A stretch of DNA of 58,860 nt from the NCBI GenBank assembly GCA_028287465.1, contig JAQBPO010000007.1, positions 1 through 58,860 on the forward strand, in the 5' to 3' direction. Below, in pieces: positions 40,598 through 56,471 of the stretch. Each line of letters opens with the position of its first letter. Positions within the stretch are counted from its first letter, which is position 1. Origin of the DNA: Fibrobacterota bacterium (lineage in GTDB: Bacteria > Fibrobacterota > Fibrobacteria > UBA11236). The notes under the pieces were generated by a model that did not search any database, was not told the DNA's origin, and worked only from the letters and a program-made list of their open reading frames with translations. The position numbers and the translations under genes are program-made.

Positions 40598-41010
40598 GCG
40601 CCTTTCGGTGAGATCGTTTGAGGACGCGGCGGCACCATTGAAAATGGTGCGCCGTAGGCATTCGGGAAAAGCGTCGCCCTCACGATCGCATAGCGCAGGC
40701 TACGAAGGATAATCTAATGCAGGGAGGACGTTTCCGGGAACGGGATTTTGGGGGGCGGAGGCCGGTTGAATCAAAGGGGCTTGCGGTACTCGCTTGCCGT
40801 ACCTCAGGCTTTCCGAAACTACCGAAGATTCCCGACCCTGGCGTTCGTGCTTCGTGCTGGCCATGAAAGTCGACCCATTTCCTGAAATCGGATTGACTCT
40901 TGAGAGCACCATAAGTATTTCAAGGCCTCCGGAAAATCCCGAGCCGCTATCGTGGGACGGCGCTCGGATGCATTTGCGCTTCCGGAGAAACCCAGTCAAG
41001 GAGATCCAGA
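40598..41010. other. Divergent promoter region, 413 bp
   Basis: This gap drives the leftward DUF1080 gene and the rightward lipoprotein gene. It contains the first CACCA-N7-TGGTG site (40633-40649) near the leftward gene. On the right, TTGACT (40893-40898) and TATTTC (40916-40921), 17 bp apart, could be the -35 and -10 of the lipoprotein promoter, leaving a leader of about 80 nt that ends in AAGGAG. No gene is supported inside. Confidence 0.45.
40633..40649. promoter_or_regulatory. Candidate operator site 1, CACCA-N7-TGGTG
   Basis: CACCATTGAAAATGGTG is a 17-bp palindrome, extended by flanking G and C to an 8-bp perfect arm on each side. It lies 36 bp upstream of the leftward DUF1080-type gene. 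Three further sites of the same form occur at 50920, 55347 and 56372, all reading in the same top-strand direction. Confidence 0.6.
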
Positions 41011-41526
41011 ATGAAGATCAGAATGTCCCCCCTGTTTTCCACCTTCGCCATCGGCCTGCTCTTGGGCGGTTGCGAAATGGCTTCCGCTCCGCGCGATGCG
41101 GCAAGCGAACCGCTCGCCAACGCGGCCCAGGGCCAAGGCACCGAAGTCATGGTGATCCCCATCAACGGCGCGATCCTGGGCTGCAACGGAGAGATGATCC
41201 CGATTACCGGAGAGCTCCTCATCACCAGCCATACCGTGATCAACGGTCAGGGCGAGACCCGCATCCGATTCCATAACGCTTTCCGCAACGTCACGGGCGT
41301 GGATGCCGCAGGCAACGAATACGTGCTCGCCGCGGCCTCCACGAACGGTTTCGAGGTCATACCGGGACCGGACGCTACGGTTTCGACCAATACCTCGGAC
41401 ATGGTCCTGGTCTCCAAGGGCTCGGGGGAAAACCTTCAGGTGCACCTCAACATCCACACCACGGTCACCCCAAGCGGCGACGTGACGGCCGAGGTATTCA
41501 ATATCACCTCGGAATGCCGGGGCTGA
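41011..41526 (+). CDS. Small predicted lipoprotein, function unknown
   Basis: The 171-residue protein has a lipoprotein signal ending GLLLGGC (Cys21). The mature part is beta-rich: TEVMVIPINGAILGCNGEMI, LLITSHTVINGQGETRIRFH, and VHLNIHTTVTPSGDVTAEVFN, with Cys residues near 58 and at the end (SECRG) that could pair. It has the look of a single beta-sandwich. No family is recognised. AAGGAG lies 9 bases before the ATG. The neighbours are a DUF1080 gene (divergent) and a broken DUF1080 copy downstream, so this gene sits inside a duplicated, rearranged region. Confidence 0.72.
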   Translation: MKIRMSPLFSTFAIGLLLGGCEMASAPRDAASEPLANAAQGQGTEVMVIPINGAILGCNGEMIPITGELLITSHTVINGQGETRIRFHNAFRNVTGVDAAGNEYVLAAASTNGFEVIPGPDATVSTNTSDMVLVSKGSGENLQVHLNIHTTVTPSGDVTAEVFNITSECRG

Positions 41527-41559
41527 ACCCTTCCGGGCGACCCCGGGACCCGCGGATGA

Positions 41560-41838
41560 TTACCCGGTTGGAACCCGTTTTTTCCTCGCGCCCGGGCGCG
41601 CGGCGCGAGGAATGATTATCGCGGGCCGTCCGTCCGCCCGGCCGATGCGGAAGACGGCCCCGAAGTCGCTGGCATGGGTATGGCCGGTCTTGCAGCCTTG
41701 GAACCATCCCTTGAAGGTGCCGTCGAAGAGGGAGAGATATCCCTCGGCATCCCGATCCTAGGGTACCGTATCCGTTACGGGCGCGTCGTCCCCGGCGAAG
41801 CAGGGCATGTCGCCGCCCGTCGGGGCGGGAACGGACAT
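41560..41838 (-). pseudogene. Broken DUF1080-type gene fragment
   Basis: Read leftward from 41838, the frame gives MSVPAPTGGDMPC, then after an in-frame TAG (about 41758-41760) AEGYLSLFDGTFKGWFQGC and FGAVFRIGRADGRPA, and then an unrelated tail to TAA at 41560-41562. The real gene at 39320-40597 reads PVPAPATGDLPC, DEGYFTLFDGTFKGWFQSC and LGAIFRIGQADGKPA over the same span (its residues about 37-117). The DNA also matches closely, including the stretch GGAACCATCCCTTGAAGGTG. It is therefore a duplicated 5' part, disabled by a stop and lacking the remaining 70 percent of the gene. Confidence 0.85.
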
Positions 41839-42202
41839 TTCCCTTTTCGCCTTCCCCACCGCCGAAACATACTCCGTCGCGTAGAGCGGGCTTGCCGCCA
41901 ACCATTCCGGAGAGGGGTCAAAACCGCTCACGCGAGCGCCATTACGGATCGGTTCCCGATTCTATGGGAAGGTGATTCTCCTCGAATGTTGGTATATTCC
42001 TAAAGTCTGAGCGTGCCTTCCCGATAGAAATCCGACTTTTTCCGATTCCCTTTTGAATTGCGTACCATTCGAATATTACTTATGTATATCCGGGTTTCTC
42101 CTCTCGGCGACTTCCTGAAAGCCAATCCGTCCGAACCAAATCCAATCAGGTCATAAGGGTAAGTCCGACCGATCCTCTCGATCCCCCTTTGAAAGGCCTC
42201 CC
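41839..42202. other. Gap between pseudogene and heme oxygenase gene, 364 bp
   Basis: This is A+T-richer than its surroundings (41940-42110) and probably holds the promoter of the phytochrome operon. TATATT at 41993-41998 could be a -10 element but has no convincing -35. The heme oxygenase frame is open from 42119, yet has no ATG, GTG or TTG before the conserved His region. No separate gene is supported. Confidence 0.4.
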
Positions 42203-42802
42203 CTGAATACAACGCAAGATCCGATCTCGATCCTCACCAGCATCAGGACGGCGACGAGCGGCCATCATTCCAGGATGGAACGGTCGCTGGATATCATGGG
42301 TCATGATTGGACCCTGGAGGCCTATAAGGATATGCTTGCGGTTTTCTATGGATTCTACCGCCCCCTGGAAGCCCTCTTGATCCGTTTCCCCCGGGAGGAT
42401 ATGGGCATCGATGTCGGACCGCGATGCAAGGCCGCTTTTCTGGAGGAAGATTTGCGTGAGTTGGGGATGTCCGAGGCGGACCAATCGGCACTTCCCCTTT
42501 GCGGATCCTTACCGGACCTTACCAGCGTTCCCGCGGCTTTGGGTTGCCTCTATGTCCTGGAAGGCGCTACCTTGGGAGGACGGGTCATCGTTCCCTATCT
42601 GAAAAAGTGCCTGGATGCTTCCGCCATCCTCGGCTACCGGTTCTTCAACCCCTATGGGGAAATGACGGGGCCGCATTGGAAGGGCTTCTGCAATGTCCTG
42701 GTTTCGAACGCCACCCGGTCCAAGGCGGACGACGTCATTCTCAAATCCGCGTGCGATACGTTCCAGAGCCTGGAAGAATGGTTTCAAAGGCGTTTAAAAT
42801 GA
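42203..42802 (+). CDS. bphO: Bacterial heme oxygenase (BphO type), probable CTG start
   Basis: The enzyme opens haem to biliverdin, the chromophore of the phytochrome encoded next. The helices TLEAYKDMLAVFYGFYRPLE and CLYVLEGATLGGRVIVPYLKK (the distal-helix Gly motif) are typical. The conserved proximal His lies in RTATSGHHSRMERSL, which is upstream of the first ATG (42275). The open frame has no ATG, GTG or TTG before that point, so translation must start at a weaker codon. CTG at 42203 has GAAAGG six bases upstream and gives a natural N-terminus (NTTQDPISILTSIRTATSG), for 199 residues in all. Starting at 42275 would leave 175 residues without the haem ligand. The stop overlaps the bphP start (ATGA). 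Confidence 0.82.
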   Translation: MNTTQDPISILTSIRTATSGHHSRMERSLDIMGHDWTLEAYKDMLAVFYGFYRPLEALLIRFPREDMGIDVGPRCKAAFLEEDLRELGMSEADQSALPLCGSLPDLTSVPAALGCLYVLEGATLGGRVIVPYLKKCLDASAILGYRFFNPYGEMTGPHWKGFCNVLVSNATRSKADDVILKSACDTFQSLEEWFQRRLK

Positions 42803-45051
42803 GTTCACAGCCGGTGGACATCGACAATTGCCACCGCGAGCCCATCCATATCCCCGGACGGATCCAACCTCACGGGGTACTGGTGACTTTCAGGGAATCC
42901 GACCTGACCATCCTGCAGGCGAGCGAAAACCTCGCCGCCTATTTGGGATTCGAAGCCTCCCGTGCCGTGGGCGATTCCCTGGCCAGTATCCTTCCCGCCG
43001 ACTACATCGAGGATCTGAAATCGGCCTTGAAGGAGATCGATAAGGAGGAGCATCCCCGGTACGCTTTTTCAATGACGAGGAATCCCGGCGGGTCCCCGAT
43101 CCATATGGAGGCCATCGTCCACCGGATCCAAGGCGTGGTAGTCCTGGAATTGGATGCCGCCAAATCCAAGGGCGCGGTCGAGCTTCCCGCTTATTACCGG
43201 TTCCTGAAAAACCCATTGTCCGCCCTCAGCGATTCTTCGAATCTGGCTGACCTATGCCGATTGGCCGCCAAGGAGACCCGCTCCCTCACGGGATTCGACC
43301 GGGTCATGATCTACCGGTTCGATCGGGACTGGAACGGGTCCGTGATCGCGGAAGAGAAACCGCCCTCCCTGGAACCATTCCTGGGTTTACGCTATCCCGC
43401 TTCGGACATTCCCATCCAGGCGCGGAACCTGTATACCAGGAACTGGCTCCGGATCATTTCCGATGTCGGATATGAATCCGTACCCATCCAACCCATCCTG
43501 AATCCCGCCAACGGGCAGCCCTTGGACTTGAGCCACTCCGTATTGCGCAGCGTTTCCCCCATGCACATCGCCTATCTGAAGAACATGGGCGTGGGCGCCT
43601 CCATGTCCATCTCCATCATCAAGAACGGCGTGCTCTGGGGGCTCATCGCTTGCCACCATGCAACGCCGCGCTTTATCAGCCATGAGATGCGGCTGGCCTG
43701 CGAATTCCTGGGGCAGGCGTTCTCGCTCAGGCTGTCCTCCCTGGAAGTCCTCGAAGACGAGAGATACAGGCTCGGGCTTAAATCCCTGCAGCAGGAATTC
43801 CGGAATTCCATGGCCCTGGAGCCCGACTTCCTGGATGGACTCGTCAAGCATAAGCCGAATCTCAAGGATTTCGCGGACGCCGGCGGAGCCGCAATCCTAT
43901 ACGATGGGAAATGCCGGTTGGTGGGGAATTGCCCGAGGGAAGCCGAGGTGCGGGAATTGGCCGCTTGGCTGGACGGCCAAGCGACCGACCCCGTCTATGC
44001 CACCGACTCCCTTCCGAAAGCCTATCCCCCGGCCGAAGCGTTTTCCGCCGTCGCCAGCGGGTTGCTGGCCATCGCCATTCCTACCACGACGAACAATTAC
44101 CTCATGTGGTTCAAGCCCGAGGTTCTGCAAACGGTCAATTGGGCCGGCAACCCCGAAAAGCCCGTTGAGATCGCCCCGGATGGTTCGCACCTGTCCCCCA
44201 GGCGGTCTTTCGCTATTTGGAAGGAAACGGTCCTGCTCACCTCCTTGGCGTGGCAAAAGCACGACCTGGAGGCCGCGTTGGAAATCAAGAACAGCTTAGT
44301 CGCCCTGGCCTTGAAAAGGACCGCCGAAGATCTCTCGGCCAGCAATGCCGAGCTGGACGCCTTCGCCTACATCGCGTCCCATGATTTGAAGGAGCCTTTA
44401 CGGGGGATCCGGACTTATTCCCGGTATCTGGCGACCGATTTCGGGGAAAAGCTGGGCGAAGCCGGAATGGGCAGGGTAAACACCATAAGCCGCCTGGCCG
44501 AGCGTATGGAGTCCTTGATCCATTCGCTCTTCGAATTCTCCAGGCTGGGCAAGGTCCATCTGAGCCGGGGCAAGGTCGACCTCGATAAAATAGTGGAGGA
44601 CGTCCTGGAGCGGTTGAGCGTCTCCATCGAAGAGCACAAGGCCGTGGTGACGATAGCACGGCCCTTGCCCACCGTGGAATGCGATCGCATCCGCGTCGGT
44701 GAGATTTTCAGTAATCTCATTTCGAACGCCCTTAAATACAATGATAAGGCCGAAAAGCGGATCGAGATCGGTTTCCAGGCCGGATCGGATCCCGCCTCGG
44801 ATGCGATACCCGTATTCTTCGTCAAGGACAATGGCCTCGGCATTCCCGAACGCCATTTCGACACCGTTTTCAAGATGTTCAAGCGCCTGCATGGACGGGA
44901 TCAGTTCGGCGGGGGCGCTGGAGCCGGGTTGGCCATCGTCCGGAAAATAGTCGGTACCCATGGGGGCCGTATCTGGCTCGAATCCGAGCCCGGCCACGGC
45001 ACCACTTTTTACTTTACCTTACAGGGCCGGGCCACCCGGATAGAGGCCTAG
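42799..45051 (+). CDS. bphP: Bacteriophytochrome sensor histidine kinase
   Basis: This 750-residue red/far-red photoreceptor is built as PAS (about 10-125), GAF (about 140-310), PHY (about 320-490), HisKA and HATPase. Cys11 in DIDNCHREP is the biliverdin attachment site of bacterial phytochromes. The GAF domain has PASDIP (200-205) and the PHY tongue has PRRSF (467-471). His528 in FAYIASHDLKEPLRG is the autophosphorylation site. The ATP lid reads DNGLGIPE and GAGAGLAIV, with a Gly-rich G2 box. Biliverdin is made by the upstream heme oxygenase. The start at 42799 overlaps that gene's stop. Output probably goes to the hybrid kinase next door. Confidence 0.93.
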   Translation: MSSQPVDIDNCHREPIHIPGRIQPHGVLVTFRESDLTILQASENLAAYLGFEASRAVGDSLASILPADYIEDLKSALKEIDKEEHPRYAFSMTRNPGGSPIHMEAIVHRIQGVVVLELDAAKSKGAVELPAYYRFLKNPLSALSDSSNLADLCRLAAKETRSLTGFDRVMIYRFDRDWNGSVIAEEKPPSLEPFLGLRYPASDIPIQARNLYTRNWLRIISDVGYESVPIQPILNPANGQPLDLSHSVLRSVSPMHIAYLKNMGVGASMSISIIKNGVLWGLIACHHATPRFISHEMRLACEFLGQAFSLRLSSLEVLEDERYRLGLKSLQQEFRNSMALEPDFLDGLVKHKPNLKDFADAGGAAILYDGKCRLVGNCPREAEVRELAAWLDGQATDPVYATDSLPKAYPPAEAFSAVASGLLAIAIPTTTNNYLMWFKPEVLQTVNWAGNPEKPVEIAPDGSHLSPRRSFAIWKETVLLTSLAWQKHDLEAALEIKNSLVALALKRTAEDLSASNAELDAFAYIASHDLKEPLRGIRTYSRYLATDFGEKLGEAGMGRVNTISRLAERMESLIHSLFEFSRLGKVHLSRGKVDLDKIVEDVLERLSVSIEEHKAVVTIARPLPTVECDRIRVGEIFSNLISNALKYNDKAEKRIEIGFQAGSDPASDAIPVFFVKDNGLGIPERHFDTVFKMFKRLHGRDQFGGGAGAGLAIVRKIVGTHGGRIWLESEPGHGTTFYFTLQGRATRIEA

Positions 45052-45062
45052 GCGAAAGGCAT

Positions 45063-47057
45063 ATGTCGAAAAATTCCATAAAAATCCTCATCATAGACGA
45101 TAGCCCCGAGGATCGGGAGGTCCTCAAGCGATTCCTGGAAGAGGACGACCAGGTCTCGTATGAAATCCTGGAAGGGGATTACGGTGAACAGGGGATCCAG
45201 CTTTGCCTCCTGGAGAAACCGGATTGCGTCCTGCTCGACTACCAGTTGCCGGACATGGATGGACTGGAAGTCCTGGATCAAATCGCGGATAAAAAAGCCC
45301 TCAGCCGATTCCCCGTCATCATGATTACGGGTTCCGGGGATGAGGTCACGGCCGTAAAAGCCATGAAAAGCGGCGCCTTCGATTACCTGGTCAAAGAACG
45401 GATCACGGCGGGGAGCCTTAAGAAGGTCATCCGCCAGGCTCTGGAGAAAATCCAGACCAACCTCAAGCTCGAAGAGCGGACCTTCATCCTGAAAATGAAG
45501 AACCAGGAGATGCAGCGCCTATCCAGCAAACTGCAAAAGGTCCTGGAATCGAATATCATGGGCGTGTTCTTCTGGAACAAGGACGGGATAATCATCGATG
45601 CGAACGCGGCGTTCCATTCCTTGTTGGGATACGGCCCGGGCGAATTGCTCGCAACGCCTACAAGATGGCGGGACCTGACCGTGGGGGAGATGGATTACCG
45701 GAATGAAGCCGGGCTCCGTACCCTGGCGGATACGGGAACCATGGAGCCTTATGAGCAATTGCTCCTCCACAAAAACGGCAATCAGGTGGACGTCTACCTC
45801 GGATTCGCTTTCCTGGAAGGTCCGGAAGGGGAGAGCGTTGCTTTCTGCCTGGACATAACCCAACGCAAGAAATTCGAGCATGCGCTCCGCCAAAGCGAAA
45901 ATCAACTCCGGCAGTCCCAAAAGATGGAGGCGGTCGGGAAACTGGCGGGCGGCATCGCCCATGACTTCAACAATCTCTTGACCTCGATCACGGGCTTTAC
46001 CTCGCTTTCCCGGGCCTCGCTGGAAGCCTCCCACCCGGTGCAGGAATACCTGCAAGAGGTCGCGAAGGCGGCGGAAAGGGCCGCGGCCTTGACGCACCAG
46101 CTGCTCGCCTATAGCCGGAAACAGGTCATCGCCCCCAAGGTCTCGAATCTCAATGATATCGTATCCAACATGGACAAGATGTTGCAAAGGGTGATCGGGG
46201 AGGACATCGACCTCCTCACCGTTCCCGGCAAGGACCTTTGGCTGACGAGGATCGATCCGGGCCAATTGGAGCAGGTCATCCTGAACCTGGCCATCAATGC
46301 GCGCGACGCCATGCCCAAGGGCGGGAAGCTGGTGATTGAAACCGCCAATGCGCAGATCAAAGCCTTCCAGCCCGGAATGCCCGCCGAGATGGCGCCCGGC
46401 CCCTACATCCGCTTGGCCATCTCGGATACCGGCGCAGGGATGTCCCAAGCGATCCAGGAACAAATCTTCGAGCCTTTCTTCACGACCAAACCGGTGGGGC
46501 ACGGAACCGGTCTGGGGCTTTCCATGGTTGATGGAATCATCAAGCAGAGCGGAGGCCACATCCTGGTTTCCAGTTCACCGGGCCAAGGGGCGTCCTTCAA
46601 AATCTACCTGCCGCGACTCCCTGCCGACCAAGAGGCCGTGGAGCCGATTGCCGGTCCATCGGTGGAAGCCGCCCGACCCGGAAAGGAAGCCGTCTTGGTG
46701 GTGGAGGATGAGGATACGGTCCGGAGGCTCGTCAAACATGTTTTGCAGACCTATGGATACAACGTATTGGAAGCGGCGAACGGCGTGGAAGCGGAAAAGC
46801 TGGCGTCGGATCCGGGTTTGACGATAGACCTGCTCCTCACGGATGTCATCATGTCCCATATGGGAGGACGGGAGCTCGCCCAGAAACTCATGAAGTCCCG
46901 GCCGGGCATCAAGGTCATGTACATGTCCGGATATACCGATGATGCGATCGTGCAGCACGGGGTCCTGGAGTCCACGGCGTACTTTATCCAGAAGCCCTTT
47001 TCGCCCCAAAGCCTGTTGCTGAAAATCAGGGAGGTCCTGGAAACTGTTGAAGCCTGA
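45063..47057 (+). CDS. Hybrid kinase: REC-PAS-HisKA-HATPase-REC
   Basis: The 664-residue cytoplasmic protein has two receiver domains around a kinase. The N-terminal REC (about 7-130) has the acceptor Asp59 in [14 protein letters not shown] short coiled coil leads to a PAS domain (about 160-270: [20 protein letters not shown]), the HisKA with His300 in [13 protein letters not shown], the HATPase ([26 protein letters not shown]), and a C-terminal REC (about 540-660) with Asp594 in LLLTDVIM. It starts 11 bp after bphP and so should be co-expressed. Phosphate probably moves from BphP to Asp59 and controls the second kinase; no DNA-binding output is adjacent. Confidence 0.9.
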
Positions 47058-47069
47058 CGGCCGGGATCC

Positions 47070-47179
47070 TAATGGTTTCAAAGCAGGCGCAACCGGCCTG
47101 AGGACCTCCGGGATAGACGTAATCGACCTTCAGGTCGAATCATCCTTGAACCCCTGGACGAGGAGCGGATGAACATGGT
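47070..47179. repeat. Chimeric scar joining copies of two distant genes
   Basis: Bases 47070-47154 repeat 48598-48683 (inside a lipoprotein gene) with only two substitutions and one missing base. From 47148 to 47174 the sequence is identical to 38829-38855 (inside the DinB-like gene), with partial match for a few bases more. The two matches overlap at GAACCCC, present at both source sites. The segment codes for no complete protein, and it sits in the 241-bp gap between the hybrid kinase and a DUF1080-type gene. Confidence 0.85.
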
Positions 47180-47298
47180 CCCGGCGTGATGGCAAAACGG
47201 TGCCGCGCCCTCGCGATGCCGTTTACCGAATGTTTACCCAGATAATCCCTGCCTAGGGGAAAATTCCGGCTACCTTCCCTTCCGGGGGGATTCCATAC

Positions 47299-48414
47299 AT
47301 GCACCGTAATGCCTTTTTCTCGAGCAGCCTGCTTTGCCTTGCCACCTTCATGCCTGTCCTTGCCGGGCCGGACGATACGGTATGGACGCCGCTGTTCAAC
47401 GGCGCCGATATGAAGGATTGGGACATCAAGGTCATGGGCTACCCGCTGAACGTGGACTCCAAGAATACCTGGCGCGTAACGAACGGCGCCATCGAAGTGA
47501 ACTATTCCAACCTTACCGATTGGACCGGTGAGCCTTGGTCCCATGCCGAATACAAGGTAAGGCCGTATTCCCATTACCTGCTCAGGGTGGAGTACCAGTT
47601 CTACGGGACCCAGGTTCCCGGCGCGCCCGCCTATGCCAACGAGAACAGCGGCATCATGCTCCATTCCCAGAAGCTTTCCACCATGGCCGTGAACCAGAAC
47701 TGGCCCATCAGCCTCGAGAACCAGTTGCTCGGGCCCAAAAGCGGGGAGGGGACAGGCTCTTCGAACCTGTGCACCCCGGGCACGGCCGTGCATAACGCCA
47801 ACGGGACCTTGAACAACGATCACTGCATCCGCGCGGCGGCCAATACGCGCACGGTGGCGCCGCTTTGGACCCTGTCAACGTCCCTGGTGCTGGGGGATTC
47901 CGTCATCAAGCAGTACATCGAAGGGAAACTGGTCCTGACCTATTACAAGCCGGTCCAATATGAAGGCGTCGTTTCCAACAATACGGTCAAGATCGTGAAC
48001 AATACGCCCCTGACTTCGGGGTATATCCAGCTCCAATCCGAATCCGCGCCCATCCGGTTCCGGAAGGTGGAATTGGCGAACCTGGAAGGGTGCAAGACGC
48101 CGGCCTCGCCCAACTACAAGTCCTACTATATCAAGCATGATCCGGCCGCCTGCAATGCCGTATCGATCGGCCCGGATCGGAAGCCTCCGACCGGCAGCCT
48201 GGAATTCCATTCCGGCGAGGGCGCCTTGGTCGCGGATTTCGCCGGAGACTACGGGTTGGAAATCCGCGACCTGGCGGGAGAGCGCGTCTGGTCCGGGAAG
48301 GGACGGGGCCGGCAGGCTTTCGCGCTCGGCTCCATCGGCCGACCCGGTCTTTATTTCGTGATCTTGAGGCAGGCCGGGCAAGTCCCTATGCGGAAAGCGG
48401 TTTGCCTCCCTTGA
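47299..48414 (+). CDS. Secreted DUF1080-type protein with sorting-type tail (second copy)
   Basis: The 371-residue protein has a signal peptide (about 1-22, ending PVLAG). A DUF1080 domain (about 25-265) includes WTPLFNGADMKDWDIKV, TWRVTNGAIEVNYSN, YLLRVEYQFYG, NSGIMLHSQ, WPISLENQLLG and SGYIQLQSESAPIRFRKVEL, a closer match to canonical DUF1080 than the other copy. The final 65 residues (YGLEIRDLAGERVWSG to RPGLYFVILR) resemble type IX sorting tails. The family acts on oxidised disaccharides and glycosides; the substrate here is unknown. It is monocistronic, follows a chimeric scar and is convergent with a small lipoprotein gene. Confidence 0.85.
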   Translation: MHRNAFFSSSLLCLATFMPVLAGPDDTVWTPLFNGADMKDWDIKVMGYPLNVDSKNTWRVTNGAIEVNYSNLTDWTGEPWSHAEYKVRPYSHYLLRVEYQFYGTQVPGAPAYANENSGIMLHSQKLSTMAVNQNWPISLENQLLGPKSGEGTGSSNLCTPGTAVHNANGTLNNDHCIRAAANTRTVAPLWTLSTSLVLGDSVIKQYIEGKLVLTYYKPVQYEGVVSNNTVKIVNNTPLTSGYIQLQSESAPIRFRKVELANLEGCKTPASPNYKSYYIKHDPAACNAVSIGPDRKPPTGSLEFHSGEGALVADFAGDYGLEIRDLAGERVWSGKGRGRQAFALGSIGRPGLYFVILRQAGQVPMRKAVCLP

Positions 48415-48502
48415 GGCGATAGAGAGGCGGCTTTACGGGGCGGCGGAAAGGGGCTTTGCCGCCTTGATGGAAATCCCTTCATCGGGATCGGACGATTCCG
48501 GA

Positions 48503-48937
48503 TTACGGGTTGGGCGCCCGCAGGGTGAAGGTGAATCCATTGAATTCCACGCGCCGGATCAACATCAAGTCATGGTCCGTGGATTTTGCGGTAAGGGTAA
48601 TGGTTTCGAAGCACGCGCAACCGGCCTGAGGACCTCCGGGATAGACGTAATCGACCTTCAGGGTCGAATCATCCTTGAACCCCGTTCTTTCTTCATGGGT
48701 CGTTTTGCAAGGTACGCCTGCCTTGAAGGTTCCCTGCAGGCTGTCCTTGGAGGCGAAGATCAGGATTCCATTGGAGTCCAGGGAGGCCTTATCGGATGCG
48801 GATTCCTTGGGCGCGGCCTCTTCGCATATCCCATGCGTACTGATTTGCGAGGAGCTCTTGGCGTTATCCGACATGCACCCCACGAAAGGAAGCAGAAATA
48901 AAACCGATAGGCTACCCATACGCATAAGATTCCCCAT
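48503..48937 (-). CDS. Small predicted lipoprotein, function unknown
   Basis: The 144-residue protein has a lipobox FLLPFVGC (Cys21). The mature part contains four further Cys (HGICEEA, GVPCKTT, AGCACFE) and beta-like stretches (LKVDYVYPGG, VEFNGFTFTLR). The start at 48937 abuts the upstream gene's stop (TGAATG); an internal ATG at 48925 has a better ribosome site (GGGGA five bases before). The segment GFKDDSTLKVDYVYPGG to CFETITL is duplicated, out of context, at 47070-47154. It is the last gene of a leftward group with the DUF6345 gene. No family is recognised. Confidence 0.68.
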   Translation of the reverse strand: MGNLMRMGSLSVLFLLPFVGCMSDNAKSSSQISTHGICEEAAPKESASDKASLDSNGILIFASKDSLQGTFKAGVPCKTTHEERTGFKDDSTLKVDYVYPGGPQAGCACFETITLTAKSTDHDLMLIRRVEFNGFTFTLRAPNP

Positions 48938-49918
48938 TCACTTAACCAGTTGATCGAATAAAGATACATCCTGGTATGGATTGAAGACCACGCCGCCCTC
49001 GTATTCGACTTTCGAGATAAAGGAGAACCCGGGAGTGATCAATATCTTACCGTTTTGCGTATCGAGGATCCAGGCCAATGCGAGGCCATCGAGCGAGCCC
49101 TTCACCGGGCGGCGTTGCGCTGTACTATTGGAAATGTCGGGAATGTTCTCGACATAGGACCGGGCTTCCGAAACCACCTCATCAAGGCTCCTTTTGGCCC
49201 GGCCGGAGTAAAGGGCGGACACCGCTGGATTGGCCTTGAATACCGGCCACTTGGCGCGAACCTTTATGATTTTCCCGTCATGATTCATCCTCAGGTACAC
49301 GAAAGAGGCATTGCCGCGCACCAGCCCTCCCCGAAATATCCTGCGATATCGGAGATCAAGGGTGGATTGGCAGCCGTTGACGTAGGTTATTTCGTGATTA
49401 TCGAATTCAACCGCGCCATTCATGTCCACCAGGGCCTGCTCCGCAATGGCTTTGTATCGATCAAGGTCCGCCAGGAAATCGAATTGGGTGTCCGTCGGTG
49501 GAGGAAGCAGATTATCCAAGGTGTCTTGCTTCTCATCCTGGATCACGAGCTCGTCCTCGGATATCTTCTCCTTTTTGTCCGAAAGGGATTTTATCCTGTT
49601 CCTGAATTTCCTGCTTAGTTGCGCATAGGTGGATGAGTCGTGCTCTAATGCGAAAACCAGGCATTTTCTCCCATTCCAATCCGCCATCGACGCGACCGTG
49701 CCCATTTCATTCGGAGATTGGATGGCCGTGCCCAATGATCCATATGCCTGCGCTTTCGCTTTGAGGCTCGATTTATGGATATTGCCGGACCCTTTTTTGA
49801 AATCTTCGACCATGGCGGTGACATTCTGGTCCACCGTGACGGGAATGGCGGCCAAGCAGAGCGAAGGCAGAATCAGGCTTAAGGTTATGATGAAATGCAT
49901 GATGTTCTCCAGTTTCAA
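48938..49918 (-). CDS. Secreted protein of unknown function, partner of the DUF6345 gene
   Basis: The 326-residue protein has a signal peptide (about 1-24, ending CLAAIP). The middle has a charged helical segment (about 95-170: LSRKFRNRIKSLSDKKEKIS, FDFLADLDRYKAIAEQALVD), then a C-terminal alpha/beta part (LDLRYRRIFRGGLV, FVYLRMNHDGKIIKVRAKWP, LALAWILDTQNGKILITPGF). The mature start, IPVTVDQNVTA, matches the mature start of its neighbour (VPVYLDQNTNT). The DUF6345 gene ends one base before this one begins, and the lipoprotein gene follows without a gap, so all three are one operon. An inhibitor, propeptide-like or substrate role is possible but unproven. Confidence 0.68.
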   Translation of the reverse strand: MKLENIMHFIITLSLILPSLCLAAIPVTVDQNVTAMVEDFKKGSGNIHKSSLKAKAQAYGSLGTAIQSPNEMGTVASMADWNGRKCLVFALEHDSSTYAQLSRKFRNRIKSLSDKKEKISEDELVIQDEKQDTLDNLLPPPTDTQFDFLADLDRYKAIAEQALVDMNGAVEFDNHEITYVNGCQSTLDLRYRRIFRGGLVRGNASFVYLRMNHDGKIIKVRAKWPVFKANPAVSALYSGRAKRSLDEVVSEARSYVENIPDISNSTAQRRPVKGSLDGLALAWILDTQNGKILITPGFSFISKVEYEGGVVFNPYQDVSLFDQLVK

Positions 49919-49919
49919 A

Positions 49920-50786
49920 TCAATAAGTCGGAGTGCCGTATATGCTGTAGATAAACCTGAGTTGGCTTACCGGGACGTCTCCATTCCAGGTGTTCGCCAC
50001 ACGCTCTTGGTGCCCCATAAATACCGTGGCTCCCTGCCATCCCGAAACGACGTTATATACGGCAGCGGGCGCATTCCCGAACCCGCCTTGGGCATATTGG
50101 ATATCGAGATTCGCTTCCGACCAGGAATCCCATAGGCCTTTGTTGTTCGGCCTCGCCCATTTCGCGGCGAAATTCTCGTACTTGGTTTCTGAGCGATGGT
50201 GGCTGCAGCACCCGCCGAAGCAATAGCAGTTATATGGATTGATATAGTACCACATATCCGATTCGTATCCAAAGACGGCATGCAGTCCATTGAACATCGG
50301 TCGATAAAAATTGGGATCATGATTAATGAGGAATTGGCAAAAATCGGCGAAAACCCATCGGGTCCAACCTCCATAGGATCTGGAACCCGGCTTTAGGGAG
50401 CTCTGCTCGTAGGTGGCGAATCCGGGGGCCTTTCCGGTGTAAACCCCGGGCGAACTCGCTACCCAGCCATGGCCCGAGAAGAAGACCATTTCATAATTAT
50501 TCATGAAGCCGTCGTTTACCAGGGTGCTGTAGGTCACCGAAGCATCCCTTCTATCGGTGCGGCTGACGGTTACGCTCGGATAATAGGAATTGAGGTTGGC
50601 TTTCAGATTATTAGCGAAGGCGTCTCCATGCGAATGGGAACGGATAGGCGAAGCCATGGCCGGGTTATAGGTCTCTATGGTATTGGTGTTCTGATCCAGG
50701 TATACCGGAACGCCGTAATACGGCGTCACGCCTGCGCAGATTCCAATCAAGCCGGCCGGCAATAAAATGAATATCGGGAATCTCAT
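49920..50786 (-). CDS. Secreted DUF6345-like protein with caspase-type His/Cys pair
   Basis: The 288-residue protein has a signal peptide (about 1-20). The core resembles clan CD (caspase/gingipain) peptidases: a hydrophobic strand ending in the His motif, EMVFFSGHGW (His106), and a second strand ending in the Cys motif, WVFADFCQFL (Cys150), then GLHAVFGYESDMWYY. This layout is that of DUF6345-type proteins, and I infer a Cys-protease-like fold; activity is not known. A Cys/His-rich insert (NPYNCYCFGGCCSHH) could bind metal or form disulfides. It heads a three-gene leftward operon. A CACCA-N7-TGGTG site lies 133 bp upstream. The substrate is unknown. Confidence 0.7.
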   Translation of the reverse strand: MRFPIFILLPAGLIGICAGVTPYYGVPVYLDQNTNTIETYNPAMASPIRSHSHGDAFANNLKANLNSYYPSVTVSRTDRRDASVTYSTLVNDGFMNNYEMVFFSGHGWVASSPGVYTGKAPGFATYEQSSLKPGSRSYGGWTRWVFADFCQFLINHDPNFYRPMFNGLHAVFGYESDMWYYINPYNCYCFGGCCSHHRSETKYENFAAKWARPNNKGLWDSWSEANLDIQYAQGGFGNAPAAVYNVVSGWQGATVFMGHQERVANTWNGDVPVSQLRFIYSIYGTPTY

Positions 50787-51111
50787 TCCTTTTCCTTTTC
50801 CTTTGGCCCGAGTTCCGGTAAAACCGGATGGTCAAGGCGCGGGTTCAACTTATCAAGACCAGCGATTAAGTCAACCCCTTTCCATTTAGACCCGGCAATA
50901 CCGAAGCCAATCGCCAATGCACCACGTAAAATGGTGACAAAAATCACTACCGGCGAACGGAGGTGGAGGGGAAAAACGAGGCCGCGTTCGAAATGCCATT
51001 CGATAGCCCGCCCTTAAGCCTTCATTTTTCCTGTGTTTCGCAACCCCGAAAGAAGCTTTATTAGAAGAGAGTACCCGCGCGCGGACCGGCTCCTTGTAAA
51101 GGAATTCGCCT
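50787..51111. other. Divergent gap between DUF6345 operon and HTH membrane gene, 325 bp
   Basis: This carries the second CACCA-N7-TGGTG site (50920-50936) and, on the leftward strand, GTGATTTTTGTCAC overlapping its flank as a further inverted repeat. The right end holds AAAGGA, the ribosome site of the gene at 51112. No gene is supported. Confidence 0.45.
50920..50936. promoter_or_regulatory. Candidate operator site 2, CACCA-N7-TGGTG
   Basis: CACCACGTAAAATGGTG lies 133 bp upstream of the leftward DUF6345 operon and 175 bp upstream of the rightward gene at 51112. Outer bases are G and A. It differs from site 3 (55347) at one inner position only. Confidence 0.6.
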
Positions 51112-51819
51112 ATGGCCTTCTCCCTATCCCTTCCCCTCTTCCGCCCCAAATCCCGCCTGCCGGACCTGTCCGGCCGGATGATGCTGGGCCTTGGCCTGGG
51201 GGGAGTGGCCGCCGTGGCCGCCGCCTTCGGCGCCTACCGCGTCCGGTCCTTGCGCCGGGGTACCCTTCTCGCGGCCCCCATCCGCCTCCTGGCCGCGCCG
51301 GAACCCCAGGCGACCTGGACGCAAGCCGGGTCGTCCGGGTCCCGCGCGAAAGCGGATGCCAACCGGGTAGAAGCGGCACCGCTTGAGGAAACGGATCCGG
51401 AGATAACCAGCCAGGAATGGGCCTCCGGCGGCGCGCCCATGGACACGTTGATCCCGGGATCTTATGCCGTGCCGGACATGGACTCTTCCGCAGCCCGTGA
51501 AACCACCCCCAACCTGCCCATCTCCACCGGCCCCCTGGGCGATCCGGATCTGGCCATGCCCGCCGCATCGGACTCCGGGACGGAGCCCCTGGGGGAACCC
51601 TGGCTCGAGACCCTGCGGACGGCCATGGAACGGAAGCCCCTGCAGTTCGGCTTCGACAAGAGCGTGTGGAACGCGCCCCTGCTCGCCGAATACTTGATGC
51701 GCACCCATGGCATCAATGTGCCCGTGCCCCGCATCCGCGCGGCCCTCAAGGACATGGGCTACCAATGGAAGAATACCCGCTACGCCCGCGTCCGCAATGG
51801 GAATGCGCAGGAGCCGTAA
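51112..51819 (+). CDS. Membrane-anchored protein with a transposase-type winged helix
   Basis: The 235-residue protein has one membrane helix near the N-terminus (about 22-44, MMLGLGLGGVAAVAAAFGA) followed by a basic stretch, then a long Pro/Ala/Glu-rich, probably disordered segment (about 60-160). The C-terminal 60 residues (KPLQFGFDKSVWNAPLLAEY, INVPVPRIRAALKDMGYQW) match the winged helix found at the N-terminus of IS630-type transposases. No catalytic transposase domain is present, so this looks like a DNA-binding module recruited to the membrane. AAAGGA lies eight bases before the ATG. Its end overlaps the next gene by 23 bp. Confidence 0.65.
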   Translation: MAFSLSLPLFRPKSRLPDLSGRMMLGLGLGGVAAVAAAFGAYRVRSLRRGTLLAAPIRLLAAPEPQATWTQAGSSGSRAKADANRVEAAPLEETDPEITSQEWASGGAPMDTLIPGSYAVPDMDSSAARETTPNLPISTGPLGDPDLAMPAASDSGTEPLGEPWLETLRTAMERKPLQFGFDKSVWNAPLLAEYLMRTHGINVPVPRIRAALKDMGYQWKNTRYARVRNGNAQEP

Positions 51820-52705
51820 TCCCTCCCTGGGGACGGTCCTCACCGGCCTCCTGCATTTCCTGGCCCGGTTCGGCAGCTTCTGCGTTGGAACGGTCTATGT
51901 GCTGATAGGCGTTTGGGCCCTGCTGGCGCTCAACCATATGGCCGAACCCGCCGCCGACGAAGAACGCATCCTGCAACGCCTGGTGGACTTCCCCTTCGGA
52001 GGCGCCTTCATAGTGGTATTGGCCACGGGCACCTTGGGGTATACCCTTTGGCGTCTCTACGAGGCGGTATCGGATCCGTACGGCTTCGGGAATTCGCCCA
52101 AGGCCCTGATGGAACGGGCGGGCATGGCCCTGAGCGCCTCGGCCTATGGCGTGATAGCCTTGGCGGCATTGAAGGTGCTGGCGGGCAACGGGGGGCATGG
52201 GGAGGAGAAGCAGCAGGCGCTGGTGGGCAAGGTGCTGGAATGGCCCGCGGGGGCTTGGCTGGTGGGGGCCATGGGCCTGGTGATCGCGTTCTCCGGGCTG
52301 TATCAGATCAAATACGTGCAGGGCGGGGAATTCAAGAAGCGGCTGGAGCTGAAACGGATGAACGCTTTTACGCGCACCGCCTCGGACGTGCTGGCCTGGC
52401 TGGGGTTCATCGCCCGGTGCGTGATCCTTTCCGTATTGGGCGGGTTCCTGATCCGGGCGGCCTGGCTGAGCGATCCCAAGGCGGTGGGGGATACGGATAC
52501 GGCGTTCGATTTCCTGGGGTTGGGGGGATCGACCTGGGGGGATTCCTTGTTTACGGTGGTGGCGTTGGGGACCATCGGGTACGGGGTGTTCATGTACCTG
52601 AACGGCGCCTACTTCCACTTCAGCGATGGAACGGATGGCGGGCGGGACCTGAAGATGCTGCACCACGGCGGCCAGGGAGATCTTGAGCGGCTCCGCTTGG
52701 GGTAG
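51797..52705 (+). CDS. DUF1206-family integral membrane protein
   Basis: The 302-residue protein has about six membrane helices arranged as three repeated pairs, the DUF1206 layout: FCVGTVYVLIGVWALLAL and IVVLATGTLGYTLWRLYEA, then MALSASAYGVIALAALKV and WLVGAMGLVIAFSGLYQIKY, then IARCVILSVLGGFLIRAAW and LFTVVALGTIGYGVFMYLN. Its function is unknown. The start at 51797 (another ATG at 51803) overlaps the end of the winged-helix gene, so the two are coupled. The gene ends 26 bp before the promoter of the second ArsR cassette. Confidence 0.82.
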   Translation: MGMRRSRNPSLGTVLTGLLHFLARFGSFCVGTVYVLIGVWALLALNHMAEPAADEERILQRLVDFPFGGAFIVVLATGTLGYTLWRLYEAVSDPYGFGNSPKALMERAGMALSASAYGVIALAALKVLAGNGGHGEEKQQALVGKVLEWPAGAWLVGAMGLVIAFSGLYQIKYVQGGEFKKRLELKRMNAFTRTASDVLAWLGFIARCVILSVLGGFLIRAAWLSDPKAVGDTDTAFDFLGLGGSTWGDSLFTVVALGTIGYGVFMYLNGAYFHFSDGTDGGRDLKMLHHGGQGDLERLRLG

Positions 52706-52730
52706 AATAGGGTCGATTCCAAAAAGCCCC

Positions 52731-52766
52731 TTGCCAAACATTACACCTTAGGGTATAATGAAATCC
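52731..52766 (+). promoter_or_regulatory. Promoter with overlapping 22-bp palindromic operator; leaderless start of ArsR gene 2
   Basis: TTGCCA (52731-52736) and TATAAT (52754-52759) are exactly 17 bp apart, an excellent vegetative promoter. The start codon ATG at 52767 is seven bases past the -10, so transcription should begin on it and leave no leader. An earlier ATG (52758) lies inside the -10 and cannot be used. Bases 52739-52760, beginning CATTA and ending TAATG, form an imperfect 22-bp palindrome covering the spacer and -10, ideal for autorepression by the ArsR protein. Confidence 0.78.
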
Positions 52767-53102
52767 ATGGACCCGTTGACCCAGGTGCTGACGGCCATTT
52801 CCCACCCCACCCGGCGTGCGATAATCGGGCAGTTGGCGAACGGTCCCGCCCGGTTCACGGATGTGGCGGGGAGGTTCGACACCGCCTTGAACGCGGTCAC
52901 CAAGCATTTGAAGCTGCTGGAACGGGCGAGCCTTATCGAACGCCGGAAAGAGGGCCGTGAGGTTTTCATTTCGCTGCGCGCCGGGCCTTTGAAGCAGGTG
53001 GCGGGATGGGTGCATGAATACGAGCGGCTCTGGAAGGAGAAGCTCGACCGGTTCGAGGACCATTTCAAGGATAAAAAGGCCAAGAAGGAGAAGAAGGAAT
53101 GA
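52767..53102 (+). CDS. ArsR-family transcriptional regulator (cassette 2)
   Basis: The 111-residue winged-helix protein has its recognition region at DVAGRFDTALNAVTKHLKLLERA and the wing IERRKEGREVFISLRAG. The opening SHPTRRAIIGQLANGPARF is typical of the SRPBCC-linked ArsR subgroup. No ArsR metal motif is present. The chosen ATG is the second one, since the first lies in the -10 element. The Lys-rich tail (KDKKAKKEKKE) leads to an ATGA overlap with the SRPBCC gene. It mirrors cassette 1 at 38 kb in order, size, coupling and leaderless promoter. Confidence 0.88.
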   Translation: MDPLTQVLTAISHPTRRAIIGQLANGPARFTDVAGRFDTALNAVTKHLKLLERASLIERRKEGREVFISLRAGPLKQVAGWVHEYERLWKEKLDRFEDHFKDKKAKKEKKE

Positions 53103-53572
53103 AGGGCATGAAGACTCTCGAAATCAGGATTGAACGGACCATCGCCGCGCCGCCGCTGGAGGTTTTCAAGGCGTGGTTGAATCCGAAGGTTCCGGGCACT
53201 CCCTGGGAAGCCGGGGACGCGCTCATCCTGCAACCCAAGGTGGATGGGCTCTTCTACTGGCTTTCCAGTAATACGGCCCATTACGGCCGGTTCACGAAGC
53301 TGCAGCGGTCGAGTGTCATCCAGCATACCTGGATGTCCTCGTATACGGAAGGCCTGGAATCGACCGTGACCGTGACCTTCAAGAAGCAGGGCGGGGATAC
53401 CTTGATGACCTTGGAGCATACCGGCCTCCCCGACAATGACAAAGGGCAGGCGCATGTGGGGGGCTGGCACGATTTCCTGGATACCTTTCCGATGCATTTC
53501 ATGAAGGCCTCGCGGAAAAAGGTCTCCCGGAAGAAAGTCGCCGGAAAGAAAGTCGCCGGAAAAAAGAAGTAG
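53099..53572 (+). CDS. SRPBCC/AHSA1-type START-like protein (cassette 2)
   Basis: The 157-residue protein has a helix-grip fold: LEIRIERTIAAPPLEVFKAW, LFYWLSSNTAHYGRFTKLQR and QHTWMSSYTEGLESTVTVTF, then a C-terminal helix (VGGWHDFLDTFPMHFM). A lysine-repeat tail (KKVSRKKVAGKKVAGKK) extends it and might bind nucleic acid or membranes. It starts on the ArsR stop (ATGA) and is followed five bases later by the YdeI-like gene. Ligand and role are unknown; sequence similarity to the cassette 1 protein is only at the fold level. Confidence 0.85.
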   Translation: MKGMKTLEIRIERTIAAPPLEVFKAWLNPKVPGTPWEAGDALILQPKVDGLFYWLSSNTAHYGRFTKLQRSSVIQHTWMSSYTEGLESTVTVTFKKQGGDTLMTLEHTGLPDNDKGQAHVGGWHDFLDTFPMHFMKASRKKVSRKKVAGKKVAGKKK

Positions 53573-53577
53573 GCTCC

Positions 53578-54150
53578 ATGGCGGAGGAATATGGAATCGG
53601 GACCTTCGAAAGCGCCTCCGCCTGGAGGCGGTGGCTTTCGGAGCATCACGGCAGTATCAAGGGGATTTGGGTCCGCATCGCGAAGAAGGATGCGGCCATG
53701 AAGACGGTCACCTATGACCAGGCCCTCGATGAGGCCCTGTGCCATGGCTGGATCGATGGGCAGAAAAAGAGCCATGACGAGGCCAGCTTTCTGCAGAAGT
53801 TCACGCCGCGCCGCCCCAGGAGCCTCTGGTCCAAGCGCAATGTCGAAAAGGTGGCCAAGCTGCTGGAAGCGGGGAAGATCAAAGCCCCGGGCCTGGCTGA
53901 AATCGAAGCGGCCAAGAAGGATGGCCGATGGGCAGGAGCGTACGACTCTTCCAAGTCCATGACGATTCCCGAGGATTTCCTCGCCGCCTTGAAGAAGAAC
54001 AAAACGGCGGAAAAAACCTTCAAGACCCTCAATCGCGCCAACCTCTTCGCGATCGGGTTCCGGCTCCAGACCGCGCGGACGCCGGAGACGCGGCAGAGGC
54101 GCATTGAGGCCTTGATGGAACGGTTGAAGAGCGGCTTGACTATCCTTTAG
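53578..54150 (+). CDS. YdeI/OmpD-associated family protein
   Basis: The 190-residue protein is recognisable from its N-terminal core: FESASAWRRWLSEHHGSIKG, VTYDQALDEALCHGWIDGQKK and FTPRRPRSLWSKRNVEKVAKL. The C-terminal helices (IPEDFLAALKKNKTAEKTF, TPETRQRRIEALMERLKSG) are also typical. Members of this family affect resistance to cationic peptides or polymyxin in enterobacteria, but the biochemical role is unclear. As the third gene of ArsR cassette 2 it takes the place DinB holds in cassette 1. It ends before the convergent YpfJ-type peptidase gene. Confidence 0.87.
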   Translation: MAEEYGIGTFESASAWRRWLSEHHGSIKGIWVRIAKKDAAMKTVTYDQALDEALCHGWIDGQKKSHDEASFLQKFTPRRPRSLWSKRNVEKVAKLLEAGKIKAPGLAEIEAAKKDGRWAGAYDSSKSMTIPEDFLAALKKNKTAEKTFKTLNRANLFAIGFRLQTARTPETRQRRIEALMERLKSGLTIL

Positions 54151-54222
54151 GCCGGCAGCTTTCGATGCCGCTTCCAGGGGTCGTTATGCCTAGTCCGGCG
54201 CATTTAGCCGCAAGGAACGGGT

Positions 54223-55131
54223 TCAAAGTTTCCCGAAGTCCTGCTCGGCGAAGGTGTCGCAGTTGCGCGCGTCCCCGCCATCGAAGCCGCGGCGGAACCA
54301 TCGCATGCGTTGGGCGCTGGAGCCGTGGGTGAATTGGGTCTTGTCGGCATGGCCAAGGGCGTCGTCGCCGATAGCGTGCGCCGCGCCCAGGGCTTCCTTG
54401 AGATCCTCATCCGTGATGCTCAAGGCGGCTTTCGCCGCCTTTCCCCAGACCCCGGCGAAACAATCGGCCTGAAGCTCGATGCGGACCGAGGTTTGGTTCT
54501 GCGTTTCGCCGTTGATCTGTTGGCGGGTCGCTCCGATCAGATTCTGGACATGGTGGCCGACTTCATGGGCGATCACGTAGGCTTGCGCGAAATCCCCCGG
54601 CGCCTTCAGGGTCTTTTCCATCACCTGGTAAAAGGTGGGATCGAGGTACAATTTGCCGTCCCCGGGGCAGTAAAAAGGCCCGGCGCCGGTCGAGGCATTG
54701 CCGCATCCGCCCGTGGAAACCTCATCGCTGAACACCGCCAGGGTGGGATTCACGTATTTGCCGGCACCTGCGCCCGGGAGCTCTCCCTGGGCGAAGCGCT
54801 CGGCCCAGACATCTTCCGTGGAAGCGAGCACCACCCGGGAGAAATCGCAGGCCTTTTCATTCGCTTCCGAAACCGTGCACGCGCTCGTCCCGCCGCTCTG
54901 GACCTCTCCTTGTCCGCCGCCGCCCAATAAGGCGTGCGTCATGGTCGACTTAAGACTGCTGGGCGCCAGGAAGTATACGACCGCGCCCAAGCCTCCCACG
55001 ATCAAGGTGCCCTTCACCCCCAGCAAGCGCACGATGTTCATCAATCCCTGACCGCCGATCCTGCCGCCCCCGCCGCGGCCTTGGCCACGATCCTCGAAGT
55101 TGTCGGAGCGGCGTTGATCTTCAATGCGCAT
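54223..55131 (-). CDS. YpfJ-type neutral zinc metallopeptidase
   Basis: The 302-residue protein has a basic, Gly-rich N-terminus (DRGQGRGGGGRIGGQG), one membrane helix (about 40-58, GTLIVGGLGAVVYFLAP) and an extracytoplasmic peptidase domain. The zinc motif is H189-E-V-G-H193 in AYVIAHEVGHHVQNLIG. The following RIELQADCFAGVWG segment gives the third ligand, as in the family. CPGDGKLYLDPTFYQVMEKT is also characteristic. The ATG at 55131 is chosen for its AAAGG site; a longer frame starts at 55182. The substrate is unknown. It is a single gene, facing the operator-linked secreted genes. Confidence 0.92.
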   Translation of the reverse strand: MRIEDQRRSDNFEDRGQGRGGGGRIGGQGLMNIVRLLGVKGTLIVGGLGAVVYFLAPSSLKSTMTHALLGGGGQGEVQSGGTSACTVSEANEKACDFSRVVLASTEDVWAERFAQGELPGAGAGKYVNPTLAVFSDEVSTGGCGNASTGAGPFYCPGDGKLYLDPTFYQVMEKTLKAPGDFAQAYVIAHEVGHHVQNLIGATRQQINGETQNQTSVRIELQADCFAGVWGKAAKAALSITDEDLKEALGAAHAIGDDALGHADKTQFTHGSSAQRMRWFRRGFDGGDARNCDTFAEQDFGKL

Positions 55132-55346
55132 GGATAAAACCTTTCGTGATGGCCGCTGCATCGGGTCCGCCAGGTAAGGCAAGTTCCGGAGCTAAGGTCA
55201 ATAAATCCATTTTCAGGGGCGGAGGCAACCGCAATTCCCGAGCGCCCCGCCACGGAAGGGTAATGGTCGGGTTCCCGGTGGGATTACAAGGGTGGCAATT
55301 TAAGAGCGAAGGATGCCTTCCGGTGAAGGTGCCAAGCGGGCGCAGT

Positions 55347-55363
55347 CACCACGTAGAATGGTG
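55347..55363. promoter_or_regulatory. Candidate operator site 3, CACCA-N7-TGGTG
   Basis: CACCACGTAGAATGGTG lies 59 bp upstream of the small secreted gene at 55423, in the 291-bp gap after the divergent YpfJ-type gene. It is preceded by GT, as at site 4, giving GTCACCAC in both. Confidence 0.6.
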
Positions 55364-55422
55364 TTTACATGACCTGTTTTCGAAGGTAAATCCCCATCTC
55401 AATATCTAAAAAGGGATCTGCC

Positions 55423-55761
55423 ATGAAAAACCTATTGATTCTCGCAATAGTGGGGGCCTTTGCCGTCATACCCTCCCATTCGGCCTGCGGCACGGACGGA
55501 ATTGGGACGTGGTGCGAGTCAAAGGTGCTGCACGTCGGGTCCGGCGCCAATGGTTCCCCTCAATGGGCCGAAGGTGTCGTCTATGTCACCTTATCGGATG
55601 ACCAGAGCTGGTTTTGGGATAATTCCTCGGCTAAGAGCATGACCCTTTCAGAGTTGCTGACGGCAAAAAGCACGGGACAGAAAGTCCAGGTACGTTGGAC
55701 GGCCGGAAATAACGGCATCGGGTCCAAAAAAATAACATCGGTTTTATTGATTCCGGAATAA
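55423..55761 (+). CDS. Small secreted beta-rich protein A
   Basis: The 112-residue protein has a signal peptide (about 1-21, ending PSHSA). The mature part has a Cys pair (SACGTDGIGTWCES) and the pattern VVYVTLSDDQSWFW, then MTLSELLTAKSTGQKVQVRW, then KKITSVLLIP. The order of beta-strand, polar loop, short helix with L-x-A-K-x-x-G-x-x-V-x-V and a final strand is shared with the next gene and with many small secreted proteins of marine and soil bacteria, none of known function. It lies 59 bp downstream of a CACCA-N7-TGGTG site and has AAGGGA before its ATG. Confidence 0.7.
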   Translation: MKNLLILAIVGAFAVIPSHSACGTDGIGTWCESKVLHVGSGANGSPQWAEGVVYVTLSDDQSWFWDNSSAKSMTLSELLTAKSTGQKVQVRWTAGNNGIGSKKITSVLLIPE

Positions 55762-55848
55762 GGCGGAATATCCGGCATACGGTATCGATTAAAACGCGAA
55801 TATGAAGTCCCTTGAAATCATTCAACAATGGATTATTAGGTAAGTGAA

Positions 55849-56208
55849 ATGAAAAACTCGCATAAGTTGTTTTTGAAATTGTCGGTTCTCGTTATGGCAA
55901 TCGGATCCATGGGTAATGCCGCATCCCAATACTTTACGGGCACAATCAACACGATCTATGCCCAGGATTCCCAATTCGGGGCGAATACTACAACCGTATA
56001 TTTAAACGGCGTAACAGCCACCACTACCACCTGCGCCTTTGACGAGGGCTTCGTAAGCTTTCGAATCAAGGATGACGAAAACGGAAAGAAGGAAATTTCC
56101 GCGATTTTGACGGCGTATTCCATGGGCAAAACCGTTCAGGTATACGTAGATGATGCATACAAAACGGCGAATGGACGTTGTTACATGATGTTCGTGAAAT
56201 TATTCTGA
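55849..56208 (+). CDS. Small secreted beta-rich protein B
   Basis: The 119-residue protein has a signal peptide (about 1-25, ending GNAAS). The mature part repeats the layout of protein A: TGTINTIYAQDSQFGANTTT, VYLNGVTATTTTCAFDEGFV, KEISAILTAYSMGKTVQVYV, NGRCYMMFVKL. The M-G-K-T-V-Q-V segment aligns with T-G-Q-K-V-Q-V of protein A. Two Cys probably form a disulfide. It lies 87 bp after protein A and has no palindrome of its own, so both may be read from the same operator-linked promoter. The next site is upstream of the metzincin. Function unknown. Confidence 0.68.
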   Translation: MKNSHKLFLKLSVLVMAIGSMGNAASQYFTGTINTIYAQDSQFGANTTTVYLNGVTATTTTCAFDEGFVSFRIKDDENGKKEISAILTAYSMGKTVQVYVDDAYKTANGRCYMMFVKLF

Positions 56209-56371
56209 ACCGGTTGTCCGGCATATCCCGATCCGCCTGCTTTTTTGATTCGGTCCATGTTCGCCTCAATCTACGGGGCCGGCCTTGGACTTATCTTCGG
56301 ATGAAGCCATCTCCCTGCCGGCCATCCTGAGAAAACAATTTTCTTGGGGCGGAAAGGGCGGCATTACAAGT

Positions 56372-56388
56372 CACCACTCAAAATGGTG
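56372..56388. promoter_or_regulatory. Candidate operator site 4, CACCA-N7-TGGTG
   Basis: CACCACTCAAAATGGTG, flanked by T and A to give a 6-bp arm on each side, lies 83 bp upstream of the metzincin gene. It is in the 263-bp gap after small secreted protein B, which otherwise shows only a short AGAAAA-CAA-TTTTCT hairpin near 56330-56344. Confidence 0.6.
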
Positions 56389-56471
56389 ATTGGAGACATC
56401 TTGAATCATGGGTACTTTCGGAAATCTCGGATTGCCCACTAATTTATTTTTCGCCACCCTAGGAGTCCGTA

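Follow-up and report, generated by a model that had tools for sequence, protein, structure and literature searches.

Palindromes and genes of the locus

The window, by which we mean the whole 58,860-nucleotide stretch analysed here from a Fibrobacterota bacterium, carries four copies of the palindrome CACCA-N7-TGGTG close to genes for secreted proteins (Table 1). An initial annotation had listed these sites with their inner bases, and a pattern search recovered each of them as given; no fifth copy was found in the window when one mismatch was allowed. As annotated, none of the four copies falls within a large called gene. They had also been described as reading the same way, which is true of the asymmetric core only, the nearest genes for exported proteins being on the minus strand for sites 1 and 2 and on the plus strand for sites 3 and 4. 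Shuffling of the window sequence gave an expectation of 0.01 copies, an estimate from base composition agreed with the earlier figure of 0.06 copies per window, and the same pattern read backwards, which is also a palindrome and has equal composition, occurred 15 times in the 5.8-Mb draft genome to which the window belongs as contig C12, corresponding to about 0.15 copies per window. All of these figures are far below the four observed.

Table 1. Coordinates of the palindromes, their promoter elements and neighbouring genes in the window, with the candidate small RNA loci of the six genomes
Feature	Position	Strand	Basis
DUF1080 (3-keto-disaccharide hydrolase-domain) secreted protein, gene nearest site 1	39320..40597	-	Pfam PF06439 8e-7
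Site 1 CACCATTGAAAATGGTG, palindrome without promoter signature	40633..40649	.	
Operon gene 3, lipoprotein-like	48503..48937	-	G002 homologue 34% identical
Operon gene 2, exported	48938..49918	-	G002 orthologue 49% identical, same order
Secreted DUF6345 protein, first operon gene downstream of site 2	49920..50786	-	Pfam PF19872 3e-7; G002 orthologue 57% identical
Site 2 CACCATTTTACGTGGTG, read towards the DUF6345 operon	50920..50936	-	Pattern search; G002 orthologous operon
Site 3 CACCACGTAGAATGGTG, candidate activator operator	55347..55363	+	Pattern search; composite with 1 mismatch
-35-like TTTACA, directly 3' of site 3	55364..55369	+	Sequence; fits post-palindrome consensus NTTNC
-10-like TAAATC, +24 from site 3	55387..55392	+	Sequence; composite search
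Small secreted protein, target of site 3	55423..55761	+	ORF; signal peptide
Second small secreted protein, possibly on the same transcript	55849..56208	+	ORF
Site 4 CACCACTCAAAATGGTG, candidate activator operator	56372..56388	+	Pattern search; composite search
-10-like TACTTT, +25 from site 4	56413..56418	+	Composite search
Secreted protein with HEFGHMLGIYH (metzincin-type zinc motif) and TIG domain, running off the contig	56472..58859	+	Domain search; ORF
Candidate small RNA loci, convergent with the regulator gene	L188 G000:C36; L201 G002:C114; L172 G005:C10; L177 G004:C30; L184 G003:C43; L170 G001:C57		

The promoter of the secreted pair looks complete at site 3, as does that of the metzincin-like protein at site 4. 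The 17-mer of site 4 recurs in the congener G005, ahead of a gene for an exported protein, and a distant homologue of the metzincin-like protein belongs to another cluster of sites (G000:C43). A canonical -10 box is missing at the expected place after site 2. Since the orthologous operon of G002 is preceded by AACCAATGGAATTGGTG, oriented alike and with TACCTT at +24, site 2 is probably a true member of the regulon whose promoter may be weakened or shifted, and the palindrome is thus kept upstream of an orthologue, as the regulon proposal had anticipated. Site 1 shows no TAnnTT at +22 to +26 in either direction, and none of the DUF1080 homologues checked has the palindrome upstream. Given that the reversed control yields about 0.15 sites per window, site 1 may be a chance occurrence, and its membership of the regulon is unsupported. 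The absence of an expected -10 box at two of the four window sites counts against the activator model developed below.

The region around the DUF1080-type genes has features of its own. A degenerate DUF1080 fragment with an internal stop (41602-41838, minus strand) is 56% identical to the protein encoded at 39320-40597, and a 65-bp direct repeat (97% identical; 47070-47134 and 48598-48662) lies on either side of a DUF1080-type gene, possibly as the trace of a duplication or insertion.

Sequence specificity of the palindrome

The bare pattern was hardly enriched in the genome of the window (19 copies, against 15 for the reversed control), indicating that the ten outer bases alone are insufficient to define the site. 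By contrast, the AT-cored palindrome CACCATTTNAAATGGTG was found 23 times in this genome with up to three mismatches, against 2 for its reversed control, and 42 times in five congeners with up to two mismatches, against 1. The matches were not spread evenly, an outcome by which the initial annotation had proposed to judge the regulon. The reversed control makes it unlikely that palindromes in general are over-represented, and suggests that this particular sequence is recognised.

The same control bears on the view that the copies are leader hairpins, terminators or dispersed palindromic repeats with no DNA-binding protein involved, two forms of which had been kept as alternatives in the initial annotation. 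The palindrome can form a hairpin of 5-7 bp, and one copy (L107) sits within a longer, perfect-armed hairpin shortly past a stop codon; the reversed palindrome of equal composition is nevertheless not enriched, and the flanks are unconserved apart from the -35 and -10 elements, unlike those of REP elements, which occur in many copies with conserved flanks at gene ends. Together with the fixed promoter phasing described in the next section, this makes a dispersed repeat highly improbable.

In three species (L080, L097 and L069), the palindrome also occurs inside a carbohydrate-kinase-like gene, where the bases differ and the symmetry is kept; this may be a consequence of the protein sequence.

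Promoter geometry

When intergenic sites were oriented towards the neighbouring gene, a TAnnTT box appeared at +24 from the palindrome. Around 55 palindromes that had been selected blind to promoters, 25 TAnnTT boxes were counted over 60 offsets in both directions, and 14 of them lay at +24 or +25 (p = 6.6e-15). The composite pattern CACCA-N7-TGGTG-N23/24-TAnnTT was found 31 times in six congeneric genomes, where the control pattern was absent, and was not found in 120 other genomes of the class, where the control occurred 5 times. The spacer was 23 bp in 24 composite sites and 24 bp in 7; the composite search accepted these two lengths only, and the promoter-blind set peaks there too. Immediately 3' of the palindrome stands a -35-like element, NTTNC, often TTTCC, TTTAC or CTTGC. 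If the first T of the -10 box is placed at -12, the palindrome extends from about -52 to about -36, with its centre at about -44. Each genome of the genus has 2-8 such strict composite promoters, and relaxed matching gives more.

Class II activators touch RNA polymerase at a fixed angle, and an operator that adjoins the -35 element at a fixed distance upstream of the -10 box is the arrangement expected of class II-type activation. The initial annotation had left open whether a repressor or an activator was involved; from the fixed spacing to the -10 box, we infer that an activator is more likely. A repressor operator covering the -35 region and blocking RNA polymerase would also abut the -35 box, and many of these boxes (TTTAC, CTTGC) still look usable. 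However, repressor sites usually vary in position, whereas here the spacing is constant to within one base, and the palindrome lies upstream of the -35 element, as it does with activators that contact the polymerase. We therefore consider repression quite unlikely. The geometry also disfavours the leader hairpin, because a palindrome upstream of the -10 box, and hence of the inferred transcription start, would lie outside the transcript of these promoters.

Targets of the sites

The genes that follow composite sites encode mostly exported proteins, among them lipoproteins and proteins with FG-GAP, fibronectin-III, RCC1 and BNR/YCF48 repeats. Palindromes without an exact composite are neighbours of genes for an Ig-repeat protein, a subtilase, a kelch lipoprotein and a multicopper oxidase. 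By a crude test, 18 of 26 targets have a signal peptide, against a background of 34% among other genes of the same loci (p = 4e-4), a value that is not fully blind, since the predictor was revised after it had missed clear signal peptides (the first version gave p = 0.009). Several of the 8 negatives are false ORFs or have clear signal peptides that the test missed, and reading by eye raises the share. Homologous targets in different species have the palindrome in common: it stands before the three-gene DUF6345 operon in both G000 and G002, before a fibronectin-III protein (FN3) in G001, G003 and G005, and before an Ig-repeat protein in G000 and G002. The earlier reading as a local regulon of secreted-protein genes is supported as to a protein-binding operator ahead of genes for exported proteins, but not as to its being local, the sites being genus-wide.

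A few composite sites (L182 and L171) point into antisense or fall in coding sequence. At a locus conserved between two species (L185, G000:C35; L173, G003:C3), a composite promoter runs antisense into a small gene, with a gene for a Cro/CI-type HTH protein some 500 bp downstream. At another locus (L174, G000:C10:145047-145093, minus strand), the composite promoter leads into about 160 nt in which no gene is called and which close with a strong terminator-like hairpin, GGGGCGGATCC..GGTCCGCCCC; this stretch is a second candidate non-coding RNA, in addition to the one described below. No Rfam family scored above threshold, either in the surroundings of the window sites or at the non-coding targets.

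A site common to all six genomes, a candidate small RNA and a candidate regulator

In all six genomes, a response-regulator gene has one composite site just past its 3' end, directed towards that end. On the far side of the site is a gene for an ABM-domain protein in G002, G003, G004 and G005, and a different or doubtful gene call in G000 and G001. The stretch of about 95 nt from the -10 box to the stop codon of the regulator is strongly conserved in all six, with an invariant GGACGGCCAA and an invariant ACCCGCG. No conserved reading frame was seen in it by eye, and it gave no Rfam match. It folds into two or three hairpins, for which two compensatory pairs in the six sequences give weak support, and each copy has 4-5 GGA motifs, of which few are conserved, mostly in predicted stems. 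A search of 331 kb of fetched loci brought up no copies beyond the six already known; weak matches in the window (10659-10738) and at L237 were at chance level. The conserved stretch is presented as a candidate new small RNA.

The protein encoded beside this site has a receiver domain (PF00072, 5e-13) and a GerE domain (PF00196, 2e-9). It has one orthologue per genome in the six congeners (63-100% identity; in G002 at C114:16596-17243), the next-best proteins being 31% identical or less over the same length, and no comparable response regulator was found in 15 other genomes. As far as tested, the regulator and the composite site share their distribution, and synteny at this one site holds in six of six genomes; the regulator was picked by adjacency and by this genus-level co-occurrence, a distribution that many other genes share. 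Its own promoter contains no composite site. In G005, a membrane histidine kinase (HisKA and HATPase_c, domains tested in this genome) is encoded about 1.5-2.5 kb from the regulator, and similar-looking genes lie near it in the other five genomes. This genus-specific response regulator of the NarL/FixJ type is the best candidate for the protein that binds the palindrome. The initial annotation had noted no obvious cognate regulator in the window; the candidate is encoded elsewhere in the genome. The ArsR-type genes of the window adjoin no site and were set aside.

An activator-type operator of the same kind might instead be bound by a TIGR02147 HTH paralogue, by the Cro/CI-type HTH protein of L185 and L173 or by a CRP-like protein, with the response regulator a mere neighbour. 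The TIGR02147 family has 26-85 copies per genome in the six genomes of the genus, 53 of them in the genome of the window, and one copy in G002 is preceded by a composite site with one mismatch (L124); the HTH_26 protein follows the site in two genomes. However, TIGR02147 genes are not consistently linked to sites, for which reason we rejected them as the regulator, and about 500 bp and an antisense gene separate the HTH_26 gene from its site. Unlike the linkage of the response regulator, neither of these two is kept in all six genomes, and we regard another binder as possible, if somewhat unlikely.

Proposed mechanism and comparison with known systems

With a probability of about 0.6, we favour the reading that a dimeric transcription activator has CACCA-YT-N3-AA-TGGTG as its operator. 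Placed directly upstream of a weak -35 element and at its fixed distance from the -10 box, the bound dimer would touch RNA polymerase in the manner of class II-type activation. The regulon would be limited to one genus of Fibrobacterota and comprise mainly secreted and surface proteins, together with at least one conserved candidate small RNA. The response regulator encoded beside the small-RNA promoter would bind the operator, and the nearby histidine kinase would be its likely partner. Regulation in the Fibrobacterota has been little studied, and an operator, a promoter geometry, a set of targets and a testable regulator are here defined from sequence alone. The operator and its regulator would help to tell when these bacteria deploy their secreted proteins, and the conserved candidate small RNA was previously undescribed.

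At class II activator promoters, such as those of CRP, FNR and several NarL-family regulators, the operator adjoins a weak -35 element at fixed spacing to the -10 box and is centred at -41.5. The promoters predicted here share the position next to a weak -35 element and the constant distance to the -10 box, and differ in operator sequence, in a centre at about -44 instead of -41.5, and in the -10 box itself, TAnnTT, which resembles the Bacteroides box, TAnnTTTG. The latter motif is named in PMC7366714. The nearest solved structures to the candidate regulator are those of DevR, NarL and VraR, with which it shares the receiver and GerE HTH domains, although it forms a separate, genus-specific lineage.

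In the Gac/Rsm system, a NarL-type response regulator is thought to control small-RNA genes via a palindromic activating sequence upstream of them, the outputs being exoproducts, and in Pseudomonas the sequestration of RsmA requires several GGA motifs (PMC2375449). Like GacA/Rsm of the gamma-proteobacteria, the system described here combines a NarL-type regulator (as a candidate), a candidate small RNA, exported products and CsrA in the genome; every one of the six congeners has a single CsrA gene, and CsrA also occurs in G010, G012 and G014, which have no composite site. Unlike in GacA/Rsm, the operator has another sequence and position, most sites stand directly before genes for secreted proteins, and conserved GGA motifs are few in the candidate small RNA. 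Because these motifs lie mostly in predicted stems and binding is here only predicted, we do not class the system as Gac/Rsm. We consider it unlikely, though conceivable, that it is a separately arisen, genus-specific counterpart in the Fibrobacterota, in which a histidine kinase and a NarL-type regulator would act through one type of operator to activate both a small RNA acting on CsrA and, directly, a set of surface and secreted proteins.
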